From Acidimicrobiales bacterium (GTDB lineage Bacteria; Actinomycetota; Acidimicrobiia; Acidimicrobiales; SHLQ01), in contig JAHDEJ010000033.1 in NCBI GenBank assembly GCA_020628865.1, positions 1-57,448 on the forward strand: a DNA stretch of 57,448 nucleotides, given 5' to 3'. Of this stretch, positions 18,759 to 22,708 are shown piece by piece. The first letter of the stretch is position 1. Every line of letters starts with the position of its first letter. The notes under the pieces are model-generated. The model was given only the letters and a program-made list of their open reading frames with translations. It was not told the origin of the DNA and did not search any database. The position numbers and the translations under genes were made by a program.

Positions 18759-18887
18759 TCCGCTTTGGACGGCTCGATCACCGTAGCGACTTCCCGCACC
18801 GGCAGGGCGGAGCGCGACGACCCGGGCCGATTGCGCCGCCCCTCAGCGGATGGTCGGACGTGCCGATTCAACGGGTATGGCGACCTC

Positions 18888-18893
18888 TACACT
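18888..18893 (+). promoter_or_regulatory. Leaderless -10 element, amidase gene
   Basis: TACACT, 7 bases, then the ATG at 18901, supporting this start over the upstream in-frame ATGs at 18850 and 18877. Confidence 0.5.
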
Positions 18894-18900
18894 GCTGGCG

Positions 18901-20283
18901 ATGCGGATACGTGGCCTCACCCTGTTCCTGATGGCGGTCGTCGTCGTCCTGGGACCCGCTGCCGCCGCGCAGATCGAGGACGATCCGGCCCAGGTCGCTC
19001 CCGCCATCGGCCCATGGTTGGGTGCCGCACGCGGGTCCGTCACGACGGTCACCGCCGTCGATGGCGGTGTTTCGCTCGCCGGTGTCGCCCGAGATCCCGA
19101 CAGCGCGAGCCCCATCAGCTACGAAGTTGTCGTCGACGGCATCACCGTGGCCAGCGGAGCGACGGCCCGCCCCGACGGCTTCGGAGAACCTGTCGGTTTC
19201 TCCGAGAGCCTCGTCCTCTCCGAGGGCCTGCACGAGGTCTGTCTGCGCCTGGTGGAGCCCCGCCTCGGCGGCCGAACCGTCGATTGCCTGACCGCCACGA
19301 CCGCACCTCCGAACACGGTCACCGCAAAGGCTCGCCGCGCGGCAACCGGCATTCTCCGCACCACGAGCGGCGTCATCGTGCCGGTCAACGGCGGTGGCCC
19401 CGGCAACTGGCAGATCAGCACCCCGTGCGGCGCCGACGCCGTCCTCGAGACCGGCACCTTCATCGAGCGGGCCCGGGTCGTCATCGATCCCGGACACGGT
19501 GGATCCGAGTCCGGCGCGGCCGGTCGCGGCATCCTCGAGAAGAACCTGAACCTCGACGTGGCGGAGATCGTCGTCGAGAAGCTGCGGGAGCTCGGAATCA
19601 CCGCCGAGCTGACCCGCACCGCCGACTACCGTGTGCCGATTGCAATGCGCGCCGACATCGCCAACGCACTCGCACCGGACGTTTTTCTGTCGCTGCATCA
19701 CAACGGCGGCGCGCTCCGACGTTCGAGCCGACCCGGTACGGAGGTCTTCTACGGCAACGGCCATCCGCAGTCACAGCGCCTGGCCGCGATCATGTACGAA
19801 GAGATGGTCGATGCGCTCGACGATTTCGACGTCGATTGGGTCTCCACCGTGAGCGAAGGCGCCTCCGTGCGCTTGCGCGACGACGGGATGGACCTCTACG
19901 GCATCCACCGATTCTCCCCCGAGATCACCTCGATCATCACCGAGTTCCTCTACCTCAGCAACGTGCCCGAAGCGCTGCTCATGCAACAGCCGGGCATGAT
20001 CGAGCTCGAGGCAGAGGCGATCGTCGATGGGCTCTTGCGCTGGTGGTGGACCGAGGACACCGGCACCGAACTCGGCCGCCGCTTCACCGACTCGTCGAGC
20101 TCCGGAACGGGCGGGTTCGACGGCTGCGTCGACCCGGCACTCGAGGCTCCGGACAACGGTGCGCTGGCCGTGGGCCGAACCGAATTCCTCACCGATCAGG
20201 CCATCGCGCTCGCCGGTCTCGATGCCCCCACTCCCCTGCTGCCGGCACTGCAGCTGGGCTCGGATCCCGCCGTCACCGACTGA
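18901..20283 (+). CDS. Secreted N-acetylmuramoyl-L-alanine amidase (Amidase_3)
   Basis: 460 residues. A signal peptide covers about residues 1-23 (MRIRGLTLFLMAVVVVLGPA, then AAAQ). An N-terminal beta-type domain of about 170 residues follows, then the zinc amidase domain, with VIDPGHGGSESGA (Zn His), the ILEKNLNLDVAEIV Glu, SLHHNGG (Zn His) and the late catalytic Glu in IITEFLYLSN. These enzymes cleave the bond between muramic acid and the stem peptide to split or remodel peptidoglycan. The N-terminal domain may target the enzyme to the wall but is not identified. The 3' end overlaps the convergent citrate-synthase-like gene by 11 bases. Confidence 0.88.
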   Translation: MRIRGLTLFLMAVVVVLGPAAAAQIEDDPAQVAPAIGPWLGAARGSVTTVTAVDGGVSLAGVARDPDSASPISYEVVVDGITVASGATARPDGFGEPVGFSESLVLSEGLHEVCLRLVEPRLGGRTVDCLTATTAPPNTVTAKARRAATGILRTTSGVIVPVNGGGPGNWQISTPCGADAVLETGTFIERARVVIDPGHGGSESGAAGRGILEKNLNLDVAEIVVEKLRELGITAELTRTADYRVPIAMRADIANALAPDVFLSLHHNGGALRRSSRPGTEVFYGNGHPQSQRLAAIMYEEMVDALDDFDVDWVSTVSEGASVRLRDDGMDLYGIHRFSPEITSIITEFLYLSNVPEALLMQQPGMIELEAEAIVDGLLRWWWTEDTGTELGRRFTDSSSSGTGGFDGCVDPALEAPDNGALAVGRTEFLTDQAIALAGLDAPTPLLPALQLGSDPAVTD

Positions 20284-21457
20284 CGTTCGTCGCCGAACCC
20301 ATCCAGCGAGCCCGAGGACGGAACCGCACCGGTGGCTCGTCGTACTCCTCCATGGCGTGAGCCAGCCATCCGGCGGTTCGGGCAACGGCGAAGATGACTT
20401 CGCCCGCATCCGGGTGCATGCCGGACAGCCAGGTGAGCGCACCGAGTGCAAGATCGATGTTCGGAACGGCGTCCGAGCGTTCGTTCACCACATCCCGCAC
20501 CCGATGGACGTGACGGAGCCGCGGATCATCGGCCCATGCGTCGAGGACGCTGGCCATCAGCGAGCGATAGCGGGGGTCCTGTCGCCGGTAGACGGCATGC
20601 CCGAAGCCGGGGATGACACCGGTTCGACGGCGGGCCTCACCAATCGCCTGCGCCGGCTGGCCGGAGCCGTCCACCTCCACGAAGAGCTGGTGCACCGCAT
20701 GGGAGGCGGCGCCGTGCAGGGTTCCGCCGAGCACCCCGAGTCCGGCGCTGACGACCGAATAGGGGTCGGCGCGGACGGACGCCGCGATGCGGGCGGCAAA
20801 GGTCGAACCGGCCAGACCGTGATCGACGAGCAGTGTCATCGCCGTCTCGAGCGCGCGCCGCTGGCGGGGCGTGCCGGGTTCGCCGACGAGGCGGCACCAG
20901 AGCACGTCCGCCAGCGACCCATCGATGTGCGTGGCGTGTCCCGGAAGTCCGTGCACGAGCTCGGTGAGCAGAGTCCGCCCGGCCGCCCGCACCGCATGGG
21001 GCGACAGATCGTGCCGCAGCGGATCCTGTTGGGAGACCATCGCCGTGCGGATTCGCAGGTCGTCGATCGTCGCCGGGCGCTGCTCGACGGCACCCGTGGA
21101 CGATGGTGAGGGCCAGGGTTCGTCCGCACCGGCGAGCCAGAGGAGGTCGGCGACCTCGGTGAACGGCATCCGGTCGTTCACGAGATCGACGAGGTCGCGT
21201 CCACGAACGAGGAGACCGTCGTCGCTCACCCGCGTGATCCGAGTCGTGATGAGCGTGTGCAACTCGCCCTCGGTGTCGGTCCGGGCACCCTTCCGGAGCC
21301 GCTCGACGTCGGCCGGATCGAATCGGCTCGTCCGGCCGTCCTCGGCGACCGTCCGGGGCAGGAGACCCCGGCTCACGTACGCATAGACCGTCTGGCGCTG
21401 CACGCCGAGACGGGCAGCGACCTCGGCTGCGGTGAGTCCGGCGGATGCTTCGGTCAC
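20273..21457 (-). CDS. Citrate-synthase-family protein with N-terminal helix-turn-helix domain
   Basis: 394 residues. Residues about 8-60 form a MerR/excisionase-type DNA-binding helix-turn-helix (LTAAEVAARLGVQRQTVYAY, then VSRGLLP and RFDPADVERLRKG). The rest is a citrate synthase fold, with an inserted or divergent helical part, and the three catalytic positions are intact: His248 in TLHGAASH, His287 in GFGHAVYR and Asp335 in NIDLALG. It could be a working citrate or methylcitrate synthase that also binds DNA, or a regulator that senses oxaloacetate or acyl-CoA. The start is a GTG preceded by GAGGAGG. It is divergent from a second citrate-synthase gene across a palindrome-rich gap. Confidence 0.85.
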   Translation of the reverse strand: MTEASAGLTAAEVAARLGVQRQTVYAYVSRGLLPRTVAEDGRTSRFDPADVERLRKGARTDTEGELHTLITTRITRVSDDGLLVRGRDLVDLVNDRMPFTEVADLLWLAGADEPWPSPSSTGAVEQRPATIDDLRIRTAMVSQQDPLRHDLSPHAVRAAGRTLLTELVHGLPGHATHIDGSLADVLWCRLVGEPGTPRQRRALETAMTLLVDHGLAGSTFAARIAASVRADPYSVVSAGLGVLGGTLHGAASHAVHQLFVEVDGSGQPAQAIGEARRRTGVIPGFGHAVYRRQDPRYRSLMASVLDAWADDPRLRHVHRVRDVVNERSDAVPNIDLALGALTWLSGMHPDAGEVIFAVARTAGWLAHAMEEYDEPPVRFRPRARWMGSATNVSR

Positions 21458-21496
21458 GGGGCCTCCTCGGCAACCCGATCAGCGGGGGTTGCCAGC

Positions 21497-21526
21497 GTCA
21501 ATGTTGACGTGATCAACATTGTCAAC
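21497..21526. promoter_or_regulatory. Palindromic operator between the divergent citrate-synthase genes
   Basis: A perfect 9-bp inverted repeat, CAATGTTGA (21499-21507) and TCAACATTG (21513-21521) with a 5-base spacer, is followed by a further GTTGAC-like half-site (TTGTCAAC, 21519-21526). The gap is otherwise G+C-rich. Its position between a gene encoding a DNA-binding citrate synthase and a second citrate synthase makes it the natural target of the HTH domain. No clear -10 or -35 was assigned. Confidence 0.55.
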
Positions 21527-21553
21527 GTACCCCGAATCGGGTTCGGTGGACAC

Positions 21554-22708
21554 ATGCATGACCACTCGTTCGGCACCACCCCCGTACCGGCCGGCAGCCT
21601 CGCCCCGCCCGGCCTGAAAGGCCTGGTCGTCGCCACCACGACCGTCGGATCCGTCCGTGGAACCGAAGGGTGGTTCCACTACCGGGACCAGGATGCAGTC
21701 ACGGTCGCCCGGCACCACACGTTCGAGGCGGCGACCGGCCTCCTGCTCGACGGACAGCTCCCCGACGCCCCAGCCGAGTCTCGGGTTCGTGTCGCCCTCG
21801 CCGACGCCCGCTCGATCGACCTCGGCCTCGTCACCGATCTGCACGCCCGGGCCGAGCGCACCGGGGCGAGCCGAATGTCCGTGCTCCGGGCGACGCTGGC
21901 GTTGCTCGTCGACGACACCCCCAGCATCGATCTCGACGACGCCGGCCGACGAGATCGGCTCCACGCCGCCATTGGCGCCGTTCCGTCGGTGCTCGCGGCC
22001 CTCCATCGGCTCGACTCGGGAGAAACACCGCTGCCGTCGGACCCGGCCCTCGGGCACGTGGCCGACTTCATCCGGATGACGACCGGCGCCACGCCGTCGC
22101 CGAGGGCGGCACGGGCCGTGGAGACGTACCTGCTGTTGACGCTCGACCACGGGTTCAACGCCTCGACGTTCACGAGTCGGGTGATCACGAGCACCGGAGC
22201 CGGTGTGGGCAGCGCACTCGTCGGCGCCATCGGTGCGTTGTCCGGGCCCCTCCACGGCGGCGCGCCGAGCCGCGTGCTCGACATGCTCGAGGCGATCGGC
22301 GATCCGTCGAACACCCGATCCTGGGCGCAGGACGAACTTGGCGCCGGCCGCAAACTGATGGGCTTCGGCCACGCCGTCTACCGGGCCGACGATCCCCGCT
22401 CGCTGCTCCTGCGAGAAACCGCCGTCGGCCTCGGCGGGCCGCTCGTCGAGCAGGCCTGCGCGGTCGAGGCCGAGATGCTGCAGTTCCTGAAGGAGACCAA
22501 GCCCGACGCGGTGATCGTCACCAACGTCGAGTTCTACGCGGCCGTGGCGCTGACGCTGGCCGGTCTGCCCCAGGAAATGTTCACCCCGGCCTTCACGACG
22601 AGCCGGGTGGTCGGCTGGTCGGCGCACATCCTCGAGCAGGCGGCAGACAACAAGATCATGCGTCCGTCCGCCCGCTACGTCGGCCCGGAGCCGACCCGCT
22701 CAGCCTGA
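21554..22708 (+). CDS. Citrate-synthase-family protein with Glu at the catalytic Asp position
   Basis: 384 residues with the full citrate synthase fold: His234 in GPLHGGAPSR, His273 in GFGHAVYRADDPR, and the third catalytic position as Glu326 in TNVEFYAA, where canonical enzymes have Asp. C-terminal TTSRVVGWSAHILEQ and RPSARYVGP are normal. It may condense acetyl- or propionyl-CoA with oxaloacetate, perhaps with changed kinetics. The frame is open back to 21257 through the neighbouring gene; the ATG at 21554 is chosen because upstream codons run through the palindromic operator and the divergent gene. No ribosome-binding site stands out. Confidence 0.82.
   Translation: MHDHSFGTTPVPAGSLAPPGLKGLVVATTTVGSVRGTEGWFHYRDQDAVTVARHHTFEAATGLLLDGQLPDAPAESRVRVALADARSIDLGLVTDLHARAERTGASRMSVLRATLALLVDDTPSIDLDDAGRRDRLHAAIGAVPSVLAALHRLDSGETPLPSDPALGHVADFIRMTTGATPSPRAARAVETYLLLTLDHGFNASTFTSRVITSTGAGVGSALVGAIGALSGPLHGGAPSRVLDMLEAIGDPSNTRSWAQDELGAGRKLMGFGHAVYRADDPRSLLLRETAVGLGGPLVEQACAVEAEMLQFLKETKPDAVIVTNVEFYAAVALTLAGLPQEMFTPAFTTSRVVGWSAHILEQAADNKIMRPSARYVGPEPTRSA

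Follow-up and report, generated by a model that had tools for sequence, protein, structure and literature searches.

A MerR-type DNA-binding domain fused to a citrate synthase: a probable autoregulator of a divergent citrate synthase gene, with a common operator in several bacterial phyla

A 57,448-nt stretch of DNA from an Acidimicrobiales bacterium (contig JAHDEJ010000033.1, positions 1–57,448, assembly GCA_020628865.1), here called the window, carries two genes of the citrate synthase (CS) family that point away from each other, one of which encodes a CS with an N-terminal helix-turn-helix (HTH) domain. We asked whether such a fusion protein (HTH-CS) is an enzyme, a transcription factor or both. 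Comparison with related loci makes it highly likely that HTH-CS is a one-component regulator in which the CS fold serves as the sensor, and that it represses the divergent gene and its own through an operator in the 96-bp gap between them (21458–21553). The comparison draws on the domain fusion, the operator, the co-occurrence of the two, the overlap of the operator with the partner promoter, the exchange of neighbouring genes and the decay of the catalytic residues in some relatives. Operator binding by the HTH, its repressive rather than activating effect, the ligand and the catalytic status of HTH-CS are inferred from it.

An earlier, sequence-only reading of the window had described a divergent CS-family pair whose left member bears a MerR/excisionase-type HTH. 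Gene calls and Pfam Citrate_synt matches on both proteins bear out the pair and its coordinates (Table 1), and two HTH families exceed their cut-offs on HTH-CS, namely HTH_17 (residues 8–54, 33.9 bits, cut-off 27) and MerR_1 (residues 9–55, 30.6 bits, cut-off 21.6); PF00376 MerR scores 23.9, below its cut-off of 28.2. Citrate_synt (PF00285) matches residues 70–381 with 180.9 bits. An AlphaFold model built from an alignment of 31 relatives (mean pLDDT 89) forms a helix-turn-helix, a wing and a third helix from residues 10–59, the last helix (48–59) being followed by a low-confidence linker that leads into the CS domain. The long coiled-coil dimerisation helix that follows the HTH in MerR proteins was not seen in this model. 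The model aligns structurally with citrate synthases (1a59, Z 36.9 over 334 residues), and the CS fold extends over the whole domain. Citrate synthases filled the PDB fold list, so that for the HTH part we relied solely on Pfam and secondary structure. The recognition helix hardly varies (T(L/V)YAYVSRG), and its T-x-Y-x-Y-V-S-R-G positions are identical in 36 of 36 actinobacterial members; the basic and recognition residues of the HTH are thus present in all of these orthologues.

The gap carries two 12-bp palindromes, GTCAATGTTGAC-GTG-ATCAACATTGTC (21497–21523), with four TTGAY-type half-sites, and a perfect 9-bp inverted repeat (21499–21507 and 21513–21521). Genome-wide operator scans were done by pattern matching, and TTGAYN{2,6}RTCAAYRTTG gave a single match in the 5.36-Mb window assembly, located in the gap, and none with the reversed-pattern control. 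A looser pattern picked up one more operator-like site in this genome (G000:C74:87383-87400, TTGACGCCATCAATTTTG). The divergent HTH-CS/CS pair is kept across classes of Actinomycetota, which argues that the arrangement is not due to chance. Between otherwise unrelated flanks, the orthologous gaps of Acidimicrobiia, Streptomyces, Rhodococcus and a further actinobacterial family have the element RTTGAY-N-RTCAAYRTTGAY in common, and an operator of the form RTTGAY-N(3-8)-RTCAANRTTGAY is found upstream of HTH-CS genes across the phylum.

In 20 genomes, every strict match but one falls where HTH-CS is encoded, and the reversed control pattern matches nowhere. A survey of 396 genomes from the phylum finds the motif in 31 of the 40 with HTH-CS compared to 21 of the 356 without (Fisher p 2.5e-24), a test that is partly in-sample, the motif having been partly defined on the same loci, and that includes related, non-independent genomes. 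Two of the 21 motif-positive genomes scored as lacking HTH-CS (G277 and G420) proved to carry the pair. In the window's own family the operator is present at 9 of 12 HTH-CS loci, often as longer arrays. The HTH-CS/CS gap of another locus (L126, G512:C4) holds about five near-tandem AAATCAATATTGCCG-like copies with a period of 15–16 bp, an array that suggests cooperative or filament-like binding.

Several loci show how operator and genes move together or apart. An unrelated gene separates the pair in G217, and the operator has remained with the CS promoter; two Streptomyces genomes have lost partner and operator together; G314 has a broken partner gene but still has the operator. In G027, HTH-CS stands alone with its own operator, and the sole extra operator of that genome lies far from it, upstream of a coenzyme A (CoA) transferase gene (L066:1565-2938; G027:C1 near 133731). 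This CoA transferase is of the CaiB type with a long N-terminal extension and is homologous over its full length (35% over 478 aa, E 5.5e-77) to the neighbour of HTH-CS in Comamonas antarctica; its homologues adjoin HTH-CS in Comamonas and Ewingella. By this homology the G027 gene appears to be the same target, placed in trans.

Outside Actinomycetota, tblastn of plasmid records was used to find HTH-CS, and fusions annotated as citrate synthase were found in Alpha-, Beta- and Gammaproteobacteria and in Deinococcus. The operator is present in 14 of 22 HTH-CS upstream regions from these records, a few of which are near relatives, and in none of 665 other 200-bp windows taken from these same records (p 6e-24). 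Because the records were found after the motif had been defined, this test is out-of-sample. A fifteenth upstream region, that of Agrobacterium fabrum C58, becomes positive once the start codon is placed downstream. The distance from TTGA to TCAA varies by clade (9, 10, 11, 12 or 13): most Acidimicrobiia, Streptomyces and Rhodococcus have 9, one family (f48) has 12 and the majority of Proteobacteria have 13. The core and the third half-site are fixed. Core positions left free in the search pattern are still biased, with A or G at position 1 in 44 of 45 sites and A at position 11 in 41 of 45.

The genes that face HTH-CS across this motif are unrelated to one another. A CS is the divergent neighbour in A. 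fabrum C58 and A. vitis, from sequence also in Ensifer and Sinorhizobium, and, within Actinomycetota, in Tsukamurella; an HMGL synthase takes that place in Deinococcus and, within Actinomycetota, in Nonomuraea and two further genomes (G160 and G187). Other neighbours of HTH-CS are an operon for a 2-hydroxyacid dehydrogenase and a fumarylacetoacetate hydrolase, CoA transferases, a thiamine pyrophosphate (TPP) enzyme, a ring-hydroxylating dioxygenase, and a gentisate-dioxygenase-like cupin gene with an HpaI aldolase gene. The motif itself was found beside divergent genes for CS, HMGL synthases, 2-hydroxyacid dehydrogenase, CoA transferase, the gentisate-dioxygenase-like cupin and the TPP enzyme. 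Varied divergent neighbours of this kind are typical of a transcription factor that acts locally.

Where an HMGL-superfamily synthase replaces the CS partner (L108:2126-3400, L109:1965-3191 and the Nonomuraea locus L140), it is NifV/isopropylmalate synthase-like and falls under all curated cut-offs; it may represent a Re-type citrate synthase or a novel enzyme that condenses acyl-CoA. The operator beside it is strict in L108 and L140 and a shorter variant in L109 (G160). Two plasmid-borne HTH-CS/CS pairs lie near siderophore transport genes, in Tsukamurella tyrosinosolvens (L151) and on pAt of A. fabrum C58 (L142), and a link of these pairs to citrate-based siderophores or iron supply is conceivable.

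The alternative that survives best is that HTH-CS works chiefly as a citrate or methylcitrate synthase and also autoregulates, that is, as a trigger enzyme, with flux in the window clade no less important than regulation and catalytic loss elsewhere secondary. As the sequence-only reading had it, His248, His287 and Asp335 of HTH-CS are retained; they align with the catalytic triad and, like the substrate arginines Arg296, Arg360 and Arg380, are intact in 36 of 36 actinobacterial members. That reading had left out the active site of the partner, and it is the partner that departs from the canonical triad, Glu326 replacing the catalytic Asp in 26 of 26, so that HTH-CS carries the more canonical triad. 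No CS besides the pair was found in the window assembly (95.9% complete), and likewise only the pair was found in a sister genome (G506/G523, 67% complete). If this lack is real, the tricarboxylic acid cycle of the lineage would depend on the pair; however, most genus-mates have a GltA-type enzyme, which makes its absence from the window assembly insecure and counts against the trigger enzyme. The two Streptomyces genomes that lost partner and operator retain HTH-CS, as an enzyme might be retained.

On the other hand, HTH-CS scores far under all CS equivalog cut-offs (TIGR01800: 133 vs 421 bits), and the 'NAST' motif that is conserved in CS after His213 is changed to AGST. In Caulobacter crescentus two further CS genes bear consecutive locus tags, and complementation of an E. 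coli gltA mutant works with citB but not with citC (PMC7083601); that CitC (CCNA_03758) is an HTH-CS is an unconfirmed lead. Moreover, catalytic residues are lost in five proteobacterial members (L149, L153, L155, L157 and L161), with His248 replaced by Thr and Asp335 by Ala in L157, and a tree requires at least two independent losses. All five retain Arg296, Arg360 and Arg380, four of the five keep the YVSRG helix (L155 has YVGRK), and the operator is retained in L157 and L161. Judged from these members, the family appears to preserve the DNA-binding helix and the carboxylate pocket rather than turnover, as a sensor would. The suggestion that the protein may be an enzyme and a regulator in one thus holds as a possibility for the window clade, with its intact active site; with catalysis lost in other members, sensing may be the main role. 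Overall we give the trigger enzyme a real chance, somewhat short of an even one. In L149, whose HTH-CS gene lies beside a ring-hydroxylating dioxygenase, the recognition helix is altered to SLYTYVSRG and a different palindrome, AGATCGATTTCATAATCGATCT, is present about 75–97 nt upstream of the HTH-CS start; its specificity has possibly shifted.

The position of the operator relative to the promoters bears on the direction of control. In the window, the left arm of palindrome 1 could be the −35 element of the HTH-CS promoter (TTGACG, minus strand, 21501–21496), with a −10-like TCGGGT (21478–21473) at 17 bp, and TTGTCA (21519–21524) could be the −35 element of the partner promoter, on which side there is a weak −10-like TTCGGT (21542–21547); with the latter as −10 the partner mRNA would be leaderless. 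Across 30 loci, a TAnnnT stands exactly 17 bp from the CS-facing TTGAY half-site in 12 and at any other spacing of 10–25 bp, including 19 and 20, in none. On the HTH-CS side the spacing is split, with 17 bp in 8 loci, 12 bp in 8 loci, and 19 bp and 20 bp in one locus each. The predicted operator thus overlaps the partner −35 element wherever a −10 element is recognisable, and it probably overlaps that of HTH-CS as well. With the operator coinciding with the −35 boxes, steric repression of both promoters would be the simplest reading. The opposite possibility, that the regulator activates the divergent genes in a MerR-like manner or by recruiting RNA polymerase, fits the MerR type of the HTH and the fact that MerR proteins often activate. 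Activation is unlikely, however, since the partner spacing is 17 bp where recognisable and not the 19–20 bp of MerR-activated promoters, and since a half-site that is itself the partner −35 should make the bound protein exclude polymerase.

A different owner of the operator (MtrA, GlnR or a Crp/FNR-type protein), with the fused HTH a non-functional remnant or put to some other use, is very improbable. The motif follows HTH-CS genes through Actinomycetota, Proteobacteria and Deinococcus, where their neighbours are unrelated, is near background in genomes without HTH-CS, and is accompanied by an invariant recognition helix. TTGAT...ATCAA does look like an FNR box; an FNR/Crp origin of the motif was rejected, as its TTGA-to-TCAA distance of 9–13 by clade contrasts with the fixed 4-bp gap of FNR sites and its fixed third half-site is foreign to the FNR box. 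In favour of MtrA, a study in S. coelicolor reports that it binds TTGACTTAACTGTCCA in vitro between SCO5831 and SCO5832, and that at late growth stages the mtrA mutant has raised levels of both (PMC12323332).

This reported binding of a different regulator in the same gap also weighs against HTH-CS as the (auto)repressor, as do several of our own observations. A strict operator match is absent from 9 of the 40 HTH-CS genomes, two Streptomyces genomes (G169 and G324) keep the HTH with no operator nearby, and no motif was seen in the decayed members L149, L153 and L155. The phylum-wide association is, as said, partly in-sample. The −10 boxes are weak in the window, which makes the promoter positions there tentative, and the −35 assignment is less clear for HTH-CS than for the partner. 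Finally, the invariant catalytic residues of the actinobacterial clade also fit an enzyme that needs turnover.

We nevertheless favour regulation by HTH-CS and suggest how it could work. A dimer or larger oligomer, joined through the CS domains, would set two MerR-type HTHs on the RTCAAYRTTGAY palindromes, cover the −35 element of its own promoter along with that of the divergent CitA-type CS promoter, and repress both. Filling of the CS pocket by oxaloacetate or another 2-oxo acid, an acyl-CoA, citrate or methylcitrate would close the domain and change its affinity for DNA, and the auxiliary citrate synthase would thus be made only when its substrate is available. This class of ligand (oxaloacetate or another 2-oxo acid, acyl-CoA, or product) is suggested by the fold, and the repeated association of HTH-CS with enzymes condensing acyl-CoA and 2-oxo acids (CS, HMGL) and with CoA transferases fits it. 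With the active site intact in the window clade, the regulator may also turn over there; in other members the CS domain may have become a pure sensor in control of other acyl-CoA or carboxylate pathways. The idea that the HTH protein binds the gap operator and controls both genes, already put forward from the window alone, thereby gains strong comparative support from the recognition helix, the tracking of the operator and the −35 overlap.

Table 1. Features of the HTH-CS locus, in positions of the window.
Feature	Position	Strand	Remarks
HTH-citrate synthase fusion gene (HTH-CS)	20273..21457	(-)	394 aa, GTG start
Divergent partner, CitA/PRK12350-type citrate synthase (CS)	21554..22708	(+)	384 aa
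MerR/excisionase-type winged HTH, residues 8–55	21293..21436	(-)	Pfam HTH_17 and MerR_1; predicted helix-turn-helix-wing-helix
Recognition helix region, residues 21–31, RQTVYAYVSRG	21365..21397	(-)	Alignment
Citrate synthase domain, residues 70–381	20315..21250	(-)	His213, His248, His287, Arg296, Asp335, Arg360, Arg380 intact
Predicted operator palindrome 1, GTCAATGTTGAC (perfect RTCAAYRTTGAY)	21497..21508	n/a	Sequence
Predicted operator palindrome 2, ATCAACATTGTC (11/12 consensus positions)	21512..21523	n/a	3 bp from palindrome 1

At the locus itself (Table 1), GAGGAG precedes the GTG start of the HTH-CS gene. The 3' end of this gene overlaps by 11 bp (20273–20283) that of a convergent open reading frame (ORF; 18850–20283, plus strand), which, judged by reading its sequence, is N-acetylmuramoyl-L-alanine amidase-like. 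The partner matches Citrate_synt alone (313.5 bits), and its closest PDB structures are B. subtilis citrate synthase (2c6x) and M. tuberculosis CitA.

Taken across phyla, these proteins probably form an undescribed transcription factor family with a CS-fold sensor and a common operator, RTTGAY-N-RTCAANRTTGAY, in which catalysis was lost repeatedly and whose targets would be auxiliary CS, HMGL-type synthases and CoA transferases, along with further genes for the catabolism of carboxylates or aromatics. If so, many genes annotated simply as citrate synthase in Streptomyces, Rhodococcus, rhizobia, Burkholderiales and Deinococcus would be misannotated regulators, flux models that count them as enzymes would change, and the inducers of the adjoining catabolic operons would become traceable. 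The family would allow one to test how the fold of a core metabolic enzyme came to switch genes, with its operator defined and its members grading from intact enzymes to pure sensors. It would also supply a natural scaffold for biosensors of oxaloacetate, citrate or acyl-CoA.

No description of HTH-fused citrate synthases as regulators was found in the open-access literature searched. By synteny, HTH-CS appears to be the orthologue of SCO5831/citA3 and the partner that of SCO5832/citA4: the ORFs of S. alfalfae give the order HTH-CS, sucrase/ferredoxin-like gene, sensor kinase, response regulator, and the order SCO5829–SCO5831 is published (PMC9739823). SCO5831 and SCO5832 are treated as putative citrate synthases under MtrA control, and in the available part of that paper an HTH, an operator of their own and self-regulation are not mentioned (PMC12323332). 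A citrate synthase with a regulatory role is known in C. crescentus, where CitA exerts cell-cycle control independent of its enzyme activity, through a (p)ppGpp-dependent action on CtrA; unlike HTH-CS, that CitA is GltA-type (65% identical to E. coli GltA) and no DNA-binding domain is mentioned for it (PMC7083601).

With TipA, BmrR and MerR of the MerR family, HTH-CS has in common an N-terminal MerR-type winged HTH, a C-terminal effector domain of a kind that varies within that family, and a palindromic operator. It differs in that the effector domain is a whole citrate synthase and that the model has no long coiled-coil dimerisation helix. The MerR operator, moreover, lies between −35 and −10 elements spaced 19–20 bp, whereas the partner promoter, where recognisable, has 17 bp and its predicted operator lies over the −35.

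The nearest functional analogues appear to be PutA and the citR-citA system of B. subtilis. In the latter, a LysR-type repressor is encoded divergently from a minor citrate synthase gene. The architecture is the same, a divergent repressor of an auxiliary CitA-type CS, if HTH-CS represses as we propose; the regulator there is of the LysR type, whereas HTH-CS is itself a citrate synthase. PutA of E. coli and Salmonella is a proline dehydrogenase/pyrroline-5-carboxylate dehydrogenase with a ribbon-helix-helix domain and, as an enzyme with an N-terminal DNA-binding domain, autoregulates and controls the divergent putP from a shared intergenic region. Its enzyme fold and its DNA-binding domain are both unrelated to those of HTH-CS, and PutA is an active enzyme, while in several HTH-CS members, which adjoin other operons, catalytic residues are lost.

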